Shown: positions 9,930 to 16,908 of the stretch, one piece after another
Numbering within the stretch: position 1 is the stretch's first letter
How the letters are laid out: each line of letters opens with the position of its first letter
Assembly (NCBI RefSeq): GCF_000426605.1
Contig: NZ_AUFR01000012.1
Coordinates: forward strand, 1 to 64,000
DNA length: 64,000 nucleotides
Source: Propionibacterium acidifaciens DSM 21887
GTDB lineage: Bacteria; Actinomycetota; Actinomycetes; Propionibacteriales; Propionibacteriaceae
Direction: 5' to 3'
The notes under the pieces: model-generated
The model's database searches: none
What the model was told of the DNA's origin: nothing
Seen by the model: the letters and a program-made list of their open reading frames with translations, nothing else
Translations under genes and position numbers: made by a program

Positions 9930-11312
9930 TCACCTCGCGGCGGGCGCATCGCCCCACAGCAGCCGGCGGCGCGCCAGCAGGTAGACCAGCAGCGCCGTGT
10001 CGGTGACGACCCAGGACAGCGGGTAGAGCAGGGCCACGCGCCCGACCGTGCCGAAGACCCGCGGCAGCGCCATGAGCAGCACCACCCGCAGGCCGCACAG
10101 GGCGCTGACGACGATGATCATCGGGGGCAGGGCGCGCCCGGCGCCGCGGATCGACGAGGAGACGACCTCCATGAGGGCGAAGAGCACGTAGCAGGGCGCG
10201 ACGATGCGGGCGATCGTCGTGCCGCGCGCGATCACCTCGGGGTCGGCGGTGAACAGGCCGAGGACCGGGCGCACGCCGACGAGCAGAGCCCCGGCCAGGA
10301 CGACCGTCACGACCGCCCCGATGAGGCAGCAGGCCCGCACCGCGCGCCGGGTGCGCGGCCGGTCCTCGGCGCCGAGGTTCTGGGCCACGCAGGTCGAGGC
10401 GGCCTGGCCGAGGGCCATGATGGGCATGTACATGAAGTTCTCGACGCGGAACCAGACGGTGAAGGCCGCGATGTCCCAGATGCCCAGCGCATTGATCCGG
10501 TACTGGACGGCGACATTGCTCAGCGTGATGACGAGGGCCTGCGCACCCGCCGGCAGGCCGATCGCGAGGATCTCGCGCAGCGTGACCGGGTGCAGGTGGA
10601 AGCGCGACAGGCGCAGCCGGTAGCGCTCGTCGAGGCGGCGCAGCGCGAGGAGGACGAGCCCGGCCGCCAGCGTCTGCGACAGGAGCGTCGCCACGGCGGC
10701 ACCGCCGATCCCCCAGCGCAGGACGACGATGAACAGGGCGTCGACGAGGACGTTCACCACGCCGCCCACGAGCTGGCAGCGCATCGGGGTGAGCGAGTCG
10801 CCCAGGGCGCGCAGGACCCCCGATCCCATGTTGAACAGGACGACGCTCACCAGGCCGAGCAGGTAGATGCGCAGGTAGACCACGGCCGACGGCACGATCT
10901 CCGGCGGCGTGCCGAGCCGGGCCATGAGGGCGGGGGCGAGGGCGATCATCACGGGGATGAGGACGAGGCCGCCGGCGAGGCCGAAGGTGAGCGCGGTGTG
11001 CATGACGCGCTCGACCTCGTTGTGCCGGCCGGCGCCGAAGTGCCCCGCGATGAGCACGCCGGTGCCCGTGCCGAGCCCCGTGAAGATGCCGACGAGGCAG
11101 GTGACGACCAGGCCGCTGGCGCCGACCGCGGCGGCCGCCCCGGTGCCCAGGACGTGGCCGACGAACATGAGGTCGACGGTGCTGTAGAGCAGCTGGATGA
11201 GCGCGGCGCCGAGCAGCGGCAGGGCGAAGAGGACGATCCCCGGCGCCAGCGGACCGGCCGTCAGGTCGACGACCCGGGCCCGGCGCCCGCCGAGTCCCGG
11301 CGCCGCCGTCAT
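9930..11312 (-). CDS. MATE family efflux protein (last gene of the B12-riboswitch operon)
   Basis: Predicted inner-membrane, cation-driven exporter of about 460 residues with twelve hydrophobic segments. The start of the first repeat (FALPLLGAALIQLLYSTVDL, then FVGHVLGTGAAAAVGASG) is the classic MATE opening; the second half repeats the pattern from about residue 235. ATG at 11312 overlaps the stop of the upstream ATPase (ATGA), tying it to the importer operon. Its substrate is unknown; membership suggests export of a metal chelate, corrinoid or related compound, but that is only inference from position. Confidence 0.85.
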   Translation of the reverse strand: MTAAPGLGGRRARVVDLTAGPLAPGIVLFALPLLGAALIQLLYSTVDLMFVGHVLGTGAAAAVGASGLVVTCLVGIFTGLGTGTGVLIAGHFGAGRHNEVERVMHTALTFGLAGGLVLIPVMIALAPALMARLGTPPEIVPSAVVYLRIYLLGLVSVVLFNMGSGVLRALGDSLTPMRCQLVGGVVNVLVDALFIVVLRWGIGGAAVATLLSQTLAAGLVLLALRRLDERYRLRLSRFHLHPVTLREILAIGLPAGAQALVITLSNVAVQYRINALGIWDIAAFTVWFRVENFMYMPIMALGQAASTCVAQNLGAEDRPRTRRAVRACCLIGAVVTVVLAGALLVGVRPVLGLFTADPEVIARGTTIARIVAPCYVLFALMEVVSSSIRGAGRALPPMIIVVSALCGLRVVLLMALPRVFGTVGRVALLYPLSWVVTDTALLVYLLARRRLLWGDAPAAR

Positions 11313-12223
11313 CGACCGTCCCCGGCGCCGGACGCGGGACGGGCCACGAGGTGCCCGGGGGCGATCTCGACGAGCGGGCCGTCGGCGGCCTCGTCCTGCG
11401 GCCGGGGGCGGGATCCGCCCCCGGGCTCCCGGCCGAGGTGGCCGTCGCGGTCGCGCAGGTCGAGCACGGACGCCAGGAGCCTGCGCGTGTAGGGGTGCCG
11501 GGCCCGTTCGACGAGGCCCTCGGCGGGCAGCTGCTCGACGACGCGGCCGCGGTGCATGACGAGGATCGTCGTGGCGAAGTGGGCGACGAGCGCCAGGTCG
11601 TGGCAGACGAAGCCGATGGCGATGCCGCGCTCGTCCTGCAGCCGGGCCAGCAGGGCCATGATCTCGGCCTGGGCGCTCACGTCGAGCGCGCTGGTGGCCT
11701 CGTCGCACAGGAGCACCTGCGGGTCGAGGGTGAGCGCCCGGGCGATGGCGCAGCGCTGGAGCTGGCCGCCGGACAGCTGGTGGGGGCGGCGCGTCACGAG
11801 GTGCTCGGACAGGCCGACGAGGCGGAGCATCTCACGGGCCCGCGGGACGACCTCGCGGCGCCCGATCGCGTCGTAGTTGATGAGCGGGGCGCAGACCGCC
11901 TCAGCGATGCGCATGCGCGGGGCGAAGGAGCCCAGCGGGTCCTGGAAGACCATCTGCACGTGGCGGCGCACCTCGCGCAGGAGCGAGCCGCGCACGTCCT
12001 GGATCTCCTGCTCGCCGAGGAGCACCCGGCCGCTCGTGGGCCTCTCGAGGCCGGTGAGCATGCGCAGCAGGGTGCTCTTGCCCGAGCCGGACTCCCCCAC
12101 GATCGCGACCGTCCGGCCCTGCGTCAGCTCGACGGAGACGTCCTCGCAGGCGGTGAGGCTCCCGCCGCCCGGGGTGCGGAAGGTCTTGGTGAGCCCCTCG
12201 GCGCTCATCGCAGGCGTGGACAC
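11309..12223 (-). CDS. ABC transporter ATPase, oligopeptide/nickel type (second ATPase)
   Basis: Cytoplasmic ATPase of a peptide/nickel/metallophore (PepT) importer, NikE/DppF-like. Walker A is GESGSGKST near residue 50, the signature is LSGGQLQRCAIARAL, and Walker B is VLLCDEATSALD; the tail has the oligopeptide-type segment RHPYTRRLLASV. I start it at GTG 12223, preceded by GAGGAG at good spacing just after the upstream stop. It should pair with the neighbouring ATPase as a heterodimer. The C-terminal extension after about residue 260 is short. Confidence 0.9.
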   Translation of the reverse strand: MSTPAMSAEGLTKTFRTPGGGSLTACEDVSVELTQGRTVAIVGESGSGKSTLLRMLTGLERPTSGRVLLGEQEIQDVRGSLLREVRRHVQMVFQDPLGSFAPRMRIAEAVCAPLINYDAIGRREVVPRAREMLRLVGLSEHLVTRRPHQLSGGQLQRCAIARALTLDPQVLLCDEATSALDVSAQAEIMALLARLQDERGIAIGFVCHDLALVAHFATTILVMHRGRVVEQLPAEGLVERARHPYTRRLLASVLDLRDRDGHLGREPGGGSRPRPQDEAADGPLVEIAPGHLVARPASGAGDGR

Positions 12224-12233
12224 GTTCGTCTCC

Positions 12234-13091
12234 TCACAGCGACGGCATGCTGGCCAGCAGCGATGCCGTGTACTCATGGGTGGGGTGGTCGATGACCCGC
12301 TCGGTCGGCCCGAGCTCGAGGACGCGCCCGGCGCGCATGACCATGATCCGGTCGGCCATGTGGGCGGCCACGCCGAGGTTGTGGGTGACGATCATGATCG
12401 CCGTGCCCTCCTCGCGGCGCAGGGCGAGCATCTGGCGGACGATCTCGGCCTGCATCGTCACGTCGAGGGCGCTCGTCGGCTCGTCGGCCAGGAGCAGGGC
12501 CGGGCTGAAGGTCATCGCCATGGCGATGCCGACCCGCTGGCGCATGCCGCCGGACAGCTCGAAGGCGTAGGAGCCCATGACGCGGTGCGGGTCCGGCAGC
12601 GCCATGCGCCCGAGCATGGTCTCGGCGCGCTGCCGGGCCCGCGCCGCCGAGCAGCCCGGCTCGGCCGTGCGGATGTACTCGACGAACTGGCCGCCGATGC
12701 GCCGCACGGGGTTGAGCATCGCCCCGGTGTCCTGGAAGACCATCGCCATGCGGTGCCGGCGCAGGTCGAGCCACTGCGCCCGGCCCAGGCCGACCAGCGA
12801 ACGCCCCTCGAAGACGACGTCGCCGGCGCTGATCCTGCCGCTGGCCGGCAGCAGGCCGAGGACGGAGCGGATCACCGTGGTCTTGCCCGAGCCGGACTCC
12901 CCCACGACGGCCACGATCTCCCCGGGCGCCACGTCGACGCTCACGTCGACGACGGCGAGCGCCCCGTCGTAGCTGACGGTCATCCCGCAGACGCGGAGCA
13001 GCTCGTCGCGCGCCGCGCCGCCGCGCGACGCCGCATCGTCCGCCGCGCCCCTCCCCGAGGGCCCCTCCGGCCCAGGCCCGCTGCCCGTCAT
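12234..13091 (-). CDS. ABC transporter ATPase, oligopeptide/nickel type (first ATPase)
   Basis: NikD/DppD-like partner ATPase of about 285 residues. It has Walker A GESGSGKTT, signature ELSGGMRQRVGIAMA, and Walker B LLLADEPTSALDV, then the family tail HPTHEYTASLLASMPSL. ATG at 13091 lies 10 bases after the binding-protein stop; about 30 low-complexity Gly/Ala/Asp residues precede the domain, so a later start is possible. It sits third from the end of the operon, as in nik and dpp clusters. Confidence 0.9.
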   Translation of the reverse strand: MTGSGPGPEGPSGRGAADDAASRGGAARDELLRVCGMTVSYDGALAVVDVSVDVAPGEIVAVVGESGSGKTTVIRSVLGLLPASGRISAGDVVFEGRSLVGLGRAQWLDLRRHRMAMVFQDTGAMLNPVRRIGGQFVEYIRTAEPGCSAARARQRAETMLGRMALPDPHRVMGSYAFELSGGMRQRVGIAMAMTFSPALLLADEPTSALDVTMQAEIVRQMLALRREEGTAIMIVTHNLGVAAHMADRIMVMRAGRVLELGPTERVIDHPTHEYTASLLASMPSL

Positions 13092-13101
13092 CGCCGCCGA
13101 C

Positions 13102-14706
13102 TCACTTCGCCGGCTTGAAGGCGCTCGTGATCCAGTAGTAGTCCGCGGTCGAGACGCTCGCATCGCTCACGGCCTTCGTGTTCGAGCACATGTTGCTGTT
13201 GTAGTAGCCGTGCACGAGGACCGCCGCGTCGTCGATGAGGATCTGCTGGAGGCGCACATAGATCTTCTTGCGCTCGGCCGTGTCGAGCTGGGTGGCCAGC
13301 TGCTCGTACAGCGAGTCGTACTCGTCGTTGTGGTAGGCGCAGTAGTTGGCCCCGCTCCTGGAGTACCAGTTGGCCAGGTAGCTGTAGGGCTCGCCCTCCT
13401 GGGCCGTCATCCAGTTGCTGGAGTTGAGGTCGTACTCGCCGGCGACGAGCTTGTTCCACTCGGTGTCGGCGTCGAGCTTGGTGACCGTCGCCTGGATGCC
13501 GATCGAGGCGAGCTGGCTGGCCACGGCCTCGGCCATGACCGACAGGTTCCGGGACTCGTAGGTGAGGTAGTCCAGGTTGATCTTCGTGCCGTCGAGCTCG
13601 CGGAAGCCGTCGCCGTCGGAGTCGACGATGCCCGCGGCGTCGAGGATCTGCTTGGCCCTCTCGGGGTCGTGGGGCGTGGCGTCGGTGAGCTGGTCGTAGC
13701 CGAAGTCGAGCGAGGAGGGGACGACCGAGCAGCCCGCGGTGTACAGGCCGCCGACCGTCGTCCCGGTGATCGTCGCGTCGTCGACCGCCATGAGGACGGC
13801 CCTGCGCAGGTCCTTGTTGGCGAGCGGGCGGCCCTCGGCGGCGTTGAGGTACGAGAAGCCCGTGCGCATGCCGATCGTCTGCGAGACCGAGTAGGTGGAG
13901 TCGTTCCGCAGCGTCTCGAGGTCGGACATGGCCGTGATGTTCTCGGTGACGTCGACGTCGCCGGACTGCAGGGCCATGAACTTGGTGAGGCTCGAGGAGT
14001 CGTCGATGAAGATGACGTGGACGCTCTCGTAGGGCACCTCGCCGTTCCAGTAGTTGGTGTTGCGGACGAGCTTGACGTCCTGGCCCGAGTTGAACTCGGT
14101 GACGGCGTAGGGGCCGGTGCCGATCGGCTTCTCGCCGAGGTTCTCGCTGCCGGCGATGTCGAGGATCTCGAACAGCGGATTGGCCAGGGCCGCCGAGAGG
14201 TCGGCCGACGGGCTCCCGGTCACGATGGTCACGGTGCGGGCGCCGTCGTCGGGCGTGATCGAGACCGGCTTCATGAAGGTCGACGGCGCGGACGAGCCCT
14301 CGGAGCCCTCCTTGTCGAACATGTGCTGGAGGGACTCGGCGACCTTCGTGGCGGTCACCTCGGTGCCGGTGGAGAACTTGAGCCCCTCGCGCAGCGCGAT
14401 CGTCCACGTGAGGTGCTCGTCGTCGGGCGTGCAGGACTCGGCCAGGTACGGCTGGGGCACCATCTTCTCGTCGAACTTGAACAACGACTCGCCGATGCCG
14501 TAGCGCATGCACGCCCAGGCGGCGTTGGGCTGGTTCGACGGGTCGAGGGACTCCTTGGAGAAGTTGGTGCAGCCGAACTTCAGCTCGGTGCCGCTCGAAC
14601 CGCCGGAGTCGGACGACGAGCAGCCGGTCAGTCCGAGGCCGGCGACGACGGTTCCGGCCGCCGAGGCGGCCAGCAGGCCGCGGCGGGTGACGATGATTCC
14701 CTGCAT
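13102..14706 (-). CDS. Substrate-binding lipoprotein of a nickel/peptide-type ABC importer
   Basis: Extracytoplasmic family 5 solute-binding protein of 534 residues. The N-terminus has a twin arginine (TRRGLLAAS), a hydrophobic stretch and a lipobox LTGC at about residues 23-26, so it is probably lipid-anchored after Sec or Tat export. The segment MRYGIGESLFKFDE resembles NikA/CntA-type nickel or metallophore binders more than peptide binders. ATG 14706 is chosen because AAGGAG stands nine bases before it. With a B12 riboswitch upstream, cobalt, nickel or a chelated form is a reasonable ligand guess; peptides cannot be excluded. Confidence 0.88.
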   Translation of the reverse strand: MQGIIVTRRGLLAASAAGTVVAGLGLTGCSSSDSGGSSGTELKFGCTNFSKESLDPSNQPNAAWACMRYGIGESLFKFDEKMVPQPYLAESCTPDDEHLTWTIALREGLKFSTGTEVTATKVAESLQHMFDKEGSEGSSAPSTFMKPVSITPDDGARTVTIVTGSPSADLSAALANPLFEILDIAGSENLGEKPIGTGPYAVTEFNSGQDVKLVRNTNYWNGEVPYESVHVIFIDDSSSLTKFMALQSGDVDVTENITAMSDLETLRNDSTYSVSQTIGMRTGFSYLNAAEGRPLANKDLRRAVLMAVDDATITGTTVGGLYTAGCSVVPSSLDFGYDQLTDATPHDPERAKQILDAAGIVDSDGDGFRELDGTKINLDYLTYESRNLSVMAEAVASQLASIGIQATVTKLDADTEWNKLVAGEYDLNSSNWMTAQEGEPYSYLANWYSRSGANYCAYHNDEYDSLYEQLATQLDTAERKKIYVRLQQILIDDAAVLVHGYYNSNMCSNTKAVSDASVSTADYYWITSAFKPAK

Positions 14707-14740
14707 CTCAATGCGCTCCTTCACGGTGGTGGGTGGTGGG

Positions 14741-15622
14741 TCAGGCCAGTGGGGCCGTGGTGAGTTCCACGACGGCCTCGTCGGGGCCGGCATGGCGGGG
14801 ATCGAGGACGTCGCGCAGCGCGTCGCCCAACAGGTTGAAGACGATGACGGTGACGCAGATCGCCGCGCCGGGGAAGATCATGAGCCAGGGCGAGTCGAGC
14901 AGGTAGGCGCGGCCCTCGTTGAGCATGAGGCCCCACTCGGCCTGCGGCGGCTGGGCGCCGAAGCCGAGGAAGGACAGGCCGGCCAGCTCGAGCATCATCG
15001 TGCCGATGTCGGTCGCGGCGGTGATGACGAGCGTCGGCAGGGCGTTCGGCAGCAGGTACCGGCGGATGAGGCGGCCCGGACGGGCACCGGTGAGCTCGGC
15101 GGCCGTCACGAAGTCGCTGTGGCGGATCTTCAGCACGAGGCTGCGCGCCAGCCGGGCGTACTTGGTCCAGCTGACGACGGCCAGGGCGATGATCGCATTG
15201 CGGATGCTGGCCCCCATGAGGCCGGCCACTGCGATGGCCAGGACGATCCCGGGGAAGGAGATCATCATGTCGGAGACCCGCATGATGACCGCGTCGACGA
15301 GGCCGCCCGCGTAGCCGGCGATGACGCCGAGCAGCGAGCCGACGACGGAGATGACGAGGACGAGGACGATCGAGGCGGCCAGCGAGACGCGGGTGCCGTA
15401 GATGACGCGCGAGGCCATGTCGCGGCCGAGCTTGTCCGTGCCGAACCAGTGCTGCGCGCTCGGCCCCTGGAAGGCCTCCGCCAGGTTGGCCTCGTAGGGG
15501 CTCATGGGGGCGATGACGCCGGCGAGCAGGGCGACCAGGACGATGACCAGGGCCAGCGCCGCGTGGACGCAGAACGCCCGGTGCGCGCCGAGGAAGCGAC
15601 GGATGCGGTGCGATGGGCTCAT
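14741..15622 (-). CDS. ABC transporter permease, NikC/DppC type
   Basis: Inner-membrane permease, 293 residues, six or so hydrophobic helices. The start fits the family: a first helix, a periplasmic loop with HWFGTDKLGRDMASRVIYG, then the transport domain with the coupling motif ELTGARPGRLIRRYLLPN. ATG 15622 overlaps the stop of the other permease (ATGA). The binding protein follows after 34 bases. Confidence 0.92.
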   Translation of the reverse strand: MSPSHRIRRFLGAHRAFCVHAALALVIVLVALLAGVIAPMSPYEANLAEAFQGPSAQHWFGTDKLGRDMASRVIYGTRVSLAASIVLVLVISVVGSLLGVIAGYAGGLVDAVIMRVSDMMISFPGIVLAIAVAGLMGASIRNAIIALAVVSWTKYARLARSLVLKIRHSDFVTAAELTGARPGRLIRRYLLPNALPTLVITAATDIGTMMLELAGLSFLGFGAQPPQAEWGLMLNEGRAYLLDSPWLMIFPGAAICVTVIVFNLLGDALRDVLDPRHAGPDEAVVELTTAPLA

Positions 15623-16563
15623 GACCGGGCTCCTCGGCGGACGCGGGGATCGAGTCGGGCGTAGGAGACGTCGACCACCAGGTTGATGACCATGTAGATC
15701 AGCGCGATCCACAGCACATAGGTCTGCACGAGCGGGTAGTCGTACGAGGTGACGGCGGTGACCGCCATGTTGCCCAGACCGGGATAGGAGAAGACGACCT
15801 CGACGACCGCCGTGCCGCCCAGCAGCGAGCCGAGCGACAGGCCCAGCAGGGTGATGAGGGGCAGCTGGGCGTTGGGCAGGACGTGCCGGGTGAGGATGGC
15901 GCGCTCGGAGAGGCCGCGCGCCCGGGCGCCGACGACGTAGTCCTGGCCGAGCTCCTCGAGGACGGCCGTGCGCACCTGCCGGGTGTACTTGCCGATCATC
16001 GCGAAGGCCAGGGTCGCGGCCGGCAGGATGAGCCTGTCGAGGCCCTGCCCCGTCGAAACGACCGGCAGCCAGCCGAGTTTGAGGGCGACCGCCCAGATGA
16101 GGAGCAGGCCGAACCAGAAGTTCGGCATCGAGATGCCCAGGAAGCTGAAGCCGCGGACGAGGCGGTCGGCGATGCCGCCCCGGCGCACCGCGGCGAGCAT
16201 GCCCAGCGGGACGGCGACGACGAGCATGAGCAGCAGGGAGGCCAGCGAGAGCTTGATGGTCGGCCACAGGCGGACGAGCATGAGATCGGCGACGGGCTTG
16301 TTCAGCGAGTACGAGGTGCCGAAGTCGCCGTGCAGGCAGTTGCCGAGCCAGGTGACGTACTGCACGAGGAAGGGCTTGTCGAGGCCGAGGCGCACCCGCA
16401 TCTGATCGACCATCTCGGGGGTGGGCGTGATCCCCTGACTGGTGTACACGGCCTGAGCGGGATCGCCGGGCGCCAGCCAGACGAGCGTGAAGGTGATGAA
16501 GCTGATGCCCACCAGCACGATGAGGATCTGGCCCAGCCGTCGGGCCAGCCATCTGGGGTCCAC
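15619..16563 (-). CDS. ABC transporter permease, NikB/DppB type
   Basis: First gene of the operon, 314 residues. It shows the NikB/DppB arrangement: helix one (LGQILIVLVGISFITFTLVW), then APGDPA, a periplasmic segment with LGLDKPFLVQY, and the transport domain with the EAA-like loop VGARARGLSERAILTRHVLP. GTG is the start, with GAGGTG ten bases before it. About 100 bases separate it from the cobalamin aptamer, enough for an expression platform acting on this ribosome-binding site. Confidence 0.92.
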   Translation of the reverse strand: MDPRWLARRLGQILIVLVGISFITFTLVWLAPGDPAQAVYTSQGITPTPEMVDQMRVRLGLDKPFLVQYVTWLGNCLHGDFGTSYSLNKPVADLMLVRLWPTIKLSLASLLLMLVVAVPLGMLAAVRRGGIADRLVRGFSFLGISMPNFWFGLLLIWAVALKLGWLPVVSTGQGLDRLILPAATLAFAMIGKYTRQVRTAVLEELGQDYVVGARARGLSERAILTRHVLPNAQLPLITLLGLSLGSLLGGTAVVEVVFSYPGLGNMAVTAVTSYDYPLVQTYVLWIALIYMVINLVVDVSYARLDPRVRRGARS

Positions 16564-16671
16564 GGGTCGAAGTCACCTCACGATCATGACGAGTGCCGTT
16601 CGTCACAACCGGATTCTCGTGACCCCGCGAGGGGCGCCCGGTCGCCAAGTGCCGCGGCGACGCGGAACGGT

Positions 16672-16858
16672 TCCCAGGCAGGTCTTCTGACTCGCGCCCC
16701 GGGGCGGTTGCCCCGACGGGCCCTCGACCTTCCCGACGGACGGTGGCCGGCTCACGCCGATGAGGACCCGGGACGCTCACAGCGGCGGTCCCGTCCGCGA
16801 TTCCCACGCGGTTCCCTATTCTCCCGGACGACCCGTCGGGCCGGCCGGGCACCTGGGG
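16672..16858 (-). promoter_or_regulatory. Cobalamin (B12) riboswitch aptamer
   Basis: Read on the minus strand. The 3' B12 box is GCGAGTCAGAAGACCTGCC (about 16676-16695). Upstream are the conserved AATAGGGAACCGCGTGGGAA and GACGGGACCGCCGCTGT cores (16774-16820), then GCCACCG and GGGAAGG elements. The ends CCCAGG (16852-16857) and CCTGGG (16673-16678) pair as the closing stem. It precedes the importer operon, so B12 should switch the importer off. The downstream platform probably hides the GAGGTG ribosome-binding site; no T-rich terminator is seen, favouring translational control. Confidence 0.92.
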
Positions 16859-16860
16859 GC

Positions 16861-16882
16861 GCTGCGCACGGGGGTGCGCAGC
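16861..16882 (-). repeat. 9-bp perfect hairpin between pheT and the riboswitch
   Basis: GCTGCGCAC and GTGCGCAGC flank a 4-base loop, immediately 5' of the aptamer closing stem. It could end pheT transcripts or be an extra stem of the riboswitch transcript. No T tract follows. The rest of 16883-17033 holds only a promoter candidate. Confidence 0.5.
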
Positions 16883-16902
16883 AACCCTTGCTTCGCGACA
16901 GC

Positions 16903-16908
16903 AGAGTA
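16903..16908 (-). promoter_or_regulatory. Candidate promoter of the B12-regulated operon
   Basis: Minus-strand TACTCT preceded by TGG, an extended -10 form. Transcription would start near 16896, just before the hairpin and aptamer. No good -35 is visible. Confidence 0.4.

Follow-up and report, generated by a model that had tools for sequence, protein, structure and literature searches.

A cobalamin riboswitch precedes a NikABCDE-like importer and its MATE exporter partner in Propionibacterium acidifaciens: a candidate route for cobalt uptake

The synthesis of vitamin B12 (cobalamin) requires cobalt, and B12 from few producers serves many organisms. In the accessible portions of the reports cited here, to which our statements about them are confined, NikABCDE members located behind a B12 riboswitch in Clostridium tetani and Desulfitobacterium hafniense are distinguished from the nickel-specific ones and read as cobalt transporters (PMC2667541), and the nikA riboswitch of Sporomusa ovata has been assayed in a reporter (PMC9600662). 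The binding proteins of Opp/NikA permeases recognize metal chelates (PMC5666155), Ni-histidine being the substrate of Escherichia coli NikA (PMC7689651), and the Cnt system of Staphylococcus aureus unites in one locus an importer of the Opp/NikA family and the exporter CntE, with secretion of a metallophore (PMC5666155). Cobalt for B12 synthesis is likewise supplied under a cobalamin riboswitch by the cobalt ECF transporter CbiMNQO, a type unrelated to the importer described below. The subject of the present work is a six-gene operon of Propionibacterium acidifaciens DSM 21887, a member of a genus used for B12 production, in which a cobalamin riboswitch precedes a five-part NikABCDE-like importer and a MATE exporter. 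The operon lies in the window, the whole stretch of 64,000 nucleotides (nt) that was analyzed, which is the first 64 kb of contig C11 (NZ_AUFR01000012.1) in an assembly (GCF_000426605.1) of 3.04 Mb and 85 contigs.

Like the operons of C. tetani, D. hafniense and S. ovata, to which it is likened by description only, the window operon places a NikA-family importer behind a cobalamin riboswitch; the accessible portions of those reports mention no exporter partner, whereas the window operon has a MATE gene and sits in Propionibacterium. It shares with the staphylopine system Cnt the presence of an Opp/NikA-family importer and an exporter in one locus, but its exporter is a MATE protein, its control is by B12, its binding protein stays below the cut-off of the CntA model (93.1 vs 800) and no CntKLM-like gene is found in the operon. 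With E. coli NikABCDE it has in common a five-part importer of the same family, with permeases close to the NikB and NikC models, yet it carries a riboswitch rather than NikR, a different gene order and a binding protein in which the chelate-site residues are not kept. A preliminary description of the window had called the system under-described. This is too strong for riboswitch-led nikA operons, which are already in print (PMC2667541, PMC9600662, both as far as accessible); the recurring coupling to a MATE exporter and the Propionibacterium members seem to be new. Among the matches listed from open PubMed Central text, no paper joins a MATE exporter, a cobalamin riboswitch and a nik-like importer, and “cobaltophore” and three variants of it have no match in that text. 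On balance, we favor a role for this operon in the B12-repressed uptake of cobalt, probably chelated, for B12 synthesis, coupled to export by the MATE protein.

The arrangement of the cobalamin riboswitch and the operon is real. The RF00174 match covers all 189 model positions (E 5.7e-10) and lies on the same strand as the first operon gene, at a spacing of 96 nt (Table 1), so that the cobalamin aptamer claimed earlier to stand directly before the operon has passed the Rfam check. Because P. australiense keeps the arrangement, and its riboswitch scores higher (83.6 bits), it is not attributable to chance. The leader contains a hairpin-forming stretch and, before the start codon, a ribosome-site-like GAGGTGA, both largely kept in P. 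australiense. Its computed fold barely exceeds those of shuffled sequences (z −1.12), and a search of the leader for an intrinsic terminator found none. Six same-strand genes follow, with gaps of −4, 34, 10, 10 and −4 nt; permease 2 overlaps permease 1, and the MATE gene overlaps ATPase 2, by 4 nt in each case, in agreement with the close-packed unit with stop-start overlaps of the preliminary description. Both ATPases and the binding protein reach no equivalog cut-off among the models shown. The MATE exporter, which had merely been listed, passes its family model and has become the most informative part of the operon.

Table 1. Features of the riboswitch-led operon, in the order of presumed transcription (window coordinates)
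Feature	Coordinates	Strand	Evidence
Cobalamin riboswitch aptamer	16660..16871	(-)	RF00174, 51.6 bits, gathering score 31.5
Leader, aptamer to first start codon; presumed expression platform	16564..16659	(-)	Conservation in P. australiense
Permease 1, Opp2B/NikB-like, 314 aa	15619..16563	(-)	NF045470, 373.5 bits, cut-off 350 passed
Permease 2, Opp2C/NikC-like, 293 aa	14741..15622	(-)	NF045474, 329.4 bits, cut-off 300 passed
Substrate-binding lipoprotein, SBP_bac_5, 534 aa	13102..14706	(-)	PF00496
ATPase 1, NikD/OppD-like, 285 aa	12234..13091	(-)	PF00005; nikD 223 bits, below cut-off 318.7
ATPase 2, NikE/DppF-like, 304 aa	11309..12223	(-)	PF00005; below PRK11308 and nikE cut-offs
MATE exporter, 460 aa	9930..11312	(-)	TIGR00797, 233.3 bits, cut-off 147.4 passed

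The linkage of the riboswitch to this importer extends to its relatives. The matches from Selenomonadaceae were grouped by identity: tier 1 comprises eight genomes at 46-47%, tier 2 ranges over about 37-44%, tier 3 over about 28-36%, and four matches are partial. From this longer list, loci were picked by hand (8 of tier 1, 12 of tier 2 and 12 of tier 3). All 20 fetched tier 1 and tier 2 loci have a cobalamin riboswitch upstream on the same strand, as against 0/12 tier 3 loci. A draw of 398 genomes from the phylum Bacillota gave 14 matches at 1e-80, the best 56% identical; seven of nine further loci from this phylum search (L141-L149) carry a riboswitch, that of L143 fitting RF01482 better (63.3 bits), and L142 and L145 are placed in the riboswitch clade by sequence. 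A further relative, L150 (37% identity), has no riboswitch. A second tree of binding proteins omits E. coli NikA and the second binding protein of the P. acidifaciens genome, whose branches were long in the first. In it, the window and P. australiense group with tier 1 and L141-L145 (support 100/100), and the riboswitch-linked set together with L150 is separate from tier 3 (100/99).

The MATE partner follows the same division. A same-strand MATE gene is present in 23 of the 30 Bacillota loci of the riboswitch clade and in none of the 12 tier 3 loci (Fisher p = 4.6e-6, a value made too small by kinship, since many loci come from one bacterial family and their independence is overstated). A MATE gene on the opposite strand occurs at two of the 12 tier 3 loci, and p is 0.001 when either strand is counted in tier 3. 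By chance, about 0.02 to 0.04 MATE genes per 20 kb would be expected on one strand, as estimated from five of these genomes. The window's clade (L063-L070, L141-L146) accounts for 10 of these 23, out of 14 loci, and tier 2 (L028, L071-L082, L147-L149) for 13, out of 16; the MATE gene of L064 is a partial tblastn match at the locus edge, absent from the hidden Markov model scan. Both Propionibacterium operons are excluded from the count of 30, as are L150, which lacks a MATE gene as well as a riboswitch, and L151, a second copy of one genome with an adjoining MATE gene and no riboswitch; with L150 and L151 the count is 24/32. In the MATE tree, one clade (99/96) holds the proteins of the window, P. 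australiense, five tier 1 copies, L141, L143, L144 and L145; 11 of the 13 tier 2 MATE proteins fall into another (100/100), L080 and L149 form a third, DinF-like pair (100/100), and a further pair (100/100) is encoded downstream of the importer in L065 and L066. The second MATE tree omits four long-branched rows of the first. As judged from these trees, the MATE partners are derived from at least three MATE lineages. The MATE gene is the last of the riboswitch-led unit in the window, L141 and L144. An exporter that recurs at one importer provides a testable lead for cobalt uptake aided by a secreted ligand.

The company kept by the importer in relatives points to cobalt. Genes for cobalt insertion or the corrin ring stand beside it in four loci: L080, where CbiK (PF06180, above cut-off) sits between riboswitch and MATE; L073, with a CbiK homologue after the importer; L028/L032, where CobN (TIGR02257, above cut-off) precedes the importer along with ChlI- and ChlD-like subunits; and L143, where the MATE gene is directly followed by CobI (above cut-off) and a CysG N-terminal domain. 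In L028/L032, about 6.8 kb separate CobN from a riboswitch upstream on its strand, a joint transcript being a possibility only. That no known cobalamin gene belongs to the operon, as had been stated, is therefore correct for the window operon and incorrect for some relatives, in which CbiK, CobN and CobI adjoin. The accompanying proposal, an importer of cobalt, nickel or corrinoid under B12 control, is supported as regards a metal importer, and these same neighbors favor cobalt over nickel or corrinoid. Because of the riboswitch control, the cobalt and corrin gene neighbors and the B12 synthesis of the host, cobalt is the most likely substrate. An AstE/AspA-like hydrolase (PF24827) and P-type ATPases for heavy metals also recur. 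The hydrolase is found at L066:11899-12936 and L028:6817-7854, its candidate substrate being the exported ligand, and was found in 0/4 Propionibacterium genomes by a search without a positive control. P-type ATPases are carried by the tier 1 operons L064-L066, L068 and L069, with very histidine-rich N-termini in L065 and L068. At L076 there is a divergent TonB receptor with a DUF4198 protein, which would fit a chelate in an outer-membrane bacterium.

The binding protein appears to be of the NikA-family importer type and yet not a NikA, as judged by model cut-offs and chelate-site residues. Reading of its sequence by eye gives a twin-arginine-like start and a lipobox, and the RYGIGE segment on which the preliminary description relied is present at residues 68-73. 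Its best equivalog is Opp5A_nikA (234.3 bits), far under the cut-off of 600, and TIGR02294 (NikA) gives 137.6 against 393. In a profile search of the PDB, nickel binders are on top, with 3t66 (232 bits), the closest solved relative, and SaNikA (168), followed by AppA (162), another binding protein, and NikA of E. coli and others (141-152). Failure of the Rfam model, or a firm grouping of the protein with peptide binders, had been named in advance as grounds for abandoning the proposal; the Rfam model passes, and nickel binders lead the ranking of solved structures with AppA close behind. The chelate-site residues of E. coli NikA, given in the accessible part of PMC2667541 as Arg97, Arg137, Tyr402 and His416, are replaced in the window protein by E, L, E and a gap in a MAFFT alignment of low identity. 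No histidine is invariant across 31 aligned riboswitch-linked binding proteins, and C46, constant across the window's clade, varies in tiers 2 and 3. Because chelates are the usual substrates of the Opp/NikA family and no histidine is invariant in the riboswitch-linked binding proteins, the substrate is probably a chelate. For the binding protein, AlphaFold was run on a three-row alignment; the resulting model, with a mean predicted local distance difference test score of 38.5, was not used.

Judged from its genes, the host is very probably a B12 producer equipped with the common cobalt importer (cbiM). An RF00174 scan of the genome gives 12 cobalamin riboswitches; the frames near the eleven others were called by script, and 20 of them were scanned. 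Adjoining frames encode CbiB, CobBC, CbiM, CobI and a protein with CbiE, CbiG and CobJ parts, as well as an anaerobic ribonucleotide reductase and the small subunit of methylmalonyl-CoA mutase. BtuFCD-like transporter parts stand behind riboswitches at four places, with F420-0 transporter models as the best ones, below cut-off. The genome has another nik-like operon, distinct from that of the window, with five genes (a binding protein, two permeases and two ATPases), no MATE gene and a riboswitch of 80.7 bits (L015:4676-9986, contig C4); P. australiense also has a binding protein of this type with an adjoining riboswitch. The weakest riboswitch of the genome scores 31.5 bits, exactly the cut-off; it stands before a XerC-like frame and was not counted as a regulon member. 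The ribonucleotide reductase preceded by a cobalamin riboswitch (NrdD, L009:6585-8934) is an enzyme that needs no B12, and at L012:4988-7411 a riboswitch is followed by two consecutive BtuF/EitA-like binding-protein frames.

In the mechanism that we favor for the window operon, a low level of corrinoid cofactor would lead the riboswitch to permit expression, the lipoprotein would capture cobalt, likely in the form of a small chelate, for transport inward by the NikBC-type permeases and NikDE-type ATPases and use in B12 synthesis; with ample cofactor, the operon would be shut. The MATE protein would most likely export a small molecule that serves the uptake, for example a chelator or its spent form. 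A fuller version, which we put forward only tentatively as a possible but doubtful elaboration, is a cobaltophore cycle under a B12 riboswitch: the MATE protein would secrete a small cobalt chelator, the NikA-like importer would recover the complex, the AstE/AspA-like hydrolase of Bacillota would process the chelator, and the P-type ATPase would handle surplus metal. If true, this would be a cobalt-dedicated metallophore system common to Propionibacterium and Bacillota. Several observations weigh against B12-repressed cobalt uptake coupled to export. No gene for making a chelator was found, and the window operon itself holds no cobalamin gene. PF10100 (opine metallophore synthesis) matched 0/13 genomes, but it also matched none of the 14 control genomes and therefore counts neither way. 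A cobalt supply from the window operon would be redundant, because cbiM and a second nik-like operon, each behind a riboswitch, are present. No riboswitch was found on L145 or on L142, the locus of the latter lying close to a contig end and starting 2.5 kb before the binding-protein gene, and AppA, an oligopeptide binder, scores near the nickel binders. A MATE gene is not seen at 7 of the 30 loci (L028, L063, L070, L071, L072, L142 and L146, three of them on contigs below 8 kb). Where tier 2 loci have one, it stands upstream of the riboswitch in 7 of 13 (L074-L078, L082 and L148), so riboswitch control of the MATE gene is not general.

This last position, together with the absence of a MATE gene from 3 of 16 tier 2 loci and both short tier 1 contigs, would be expected if the importer carried cobalt and the MATE protein were a separate pump merely sharing the transcript, for instance expelling toxic compounds or surplus amino acids, and MATE proteins are mostly known for multidrug export. 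Such a pump does not readily explain the linkage in 23/30 against 0/12 loci, the recruitment of at least three MATE lineages to one importer clade or the terminal position of the MATE gene in the riboswitch-led units of the window, L141 and L144, and we consider it unlikely. Still less probable is an importer of nickel or peptide with an indirect B12 link through the riboswitch. Among family models, those for nickel and oligopeptides score best, and the nearest solved structures are nickel binders and AppA; set against this are the riboswitch linkage throughout the clade and its absence from tier 3, the cobalt and corrin genes adjoining relatives, and the loss of R137, Y402 and H416 of E. coli NikA in the MAFFT alignment. 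An importer of a corrinoid or B12 precursor, with the MATE protein as an accessory pump, would fit the riboswitch control, and heme-binding family members among the profile matches (3m8u, 3tpa and 6ofq) indicate that large tetrapyrroles can be carried. We nevertheless give this the lowest standing of all, as BtuFCD-like parts already stand behind four other riboswitches in the genome, the genes beside relatives are for cobalt insertion, and the permeases pass nickel-transporter models.

The operon is rare in the class Actinomycetes, a draw of 394 of its genomes giving a match at 1e-60 in the window's own genome only. The window binding protein was found in 4 of 57 genomes searched, its own included (E ≤1e-40), and one of three congeners matches, namely P. 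australiense (G002, contig NZ_RCIV01000023.1; 79% identity), which has the same order from riboswitch to MATE and the same flanking genes, which we take to be pheT, an aminotransferase gene and argC. Two relatives in Propionibacteriaceae (L025 and L026, 32%) were dropped, since neither has a riboswitch that reaches the gathering score. The nearest of the remaining relatives that were found belong to Bacillota, at no more than 56% identity; in Selenomonadaceae, 87 of 121 genomes match (E ≤1e-50), and a contig scan gave a further locus in a metagenome-assembled genome of this family (36% identity). The simplest inference would be a transfer between Bacillota and Propionibacterium. At L144:3264-5699, no stop codon separates permease 2 from the binding protein, and the resulting 811-codon frame is either a fusion or a sequence error. 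At L073:7200-19485, a second importer, of tier 3 type, comes after the riboswitch-led importer, CbiK and MATE and shares their strand. The window opens, at the start of contig C11, within a minus-strand 16S rRNA gene (positions 1-100).

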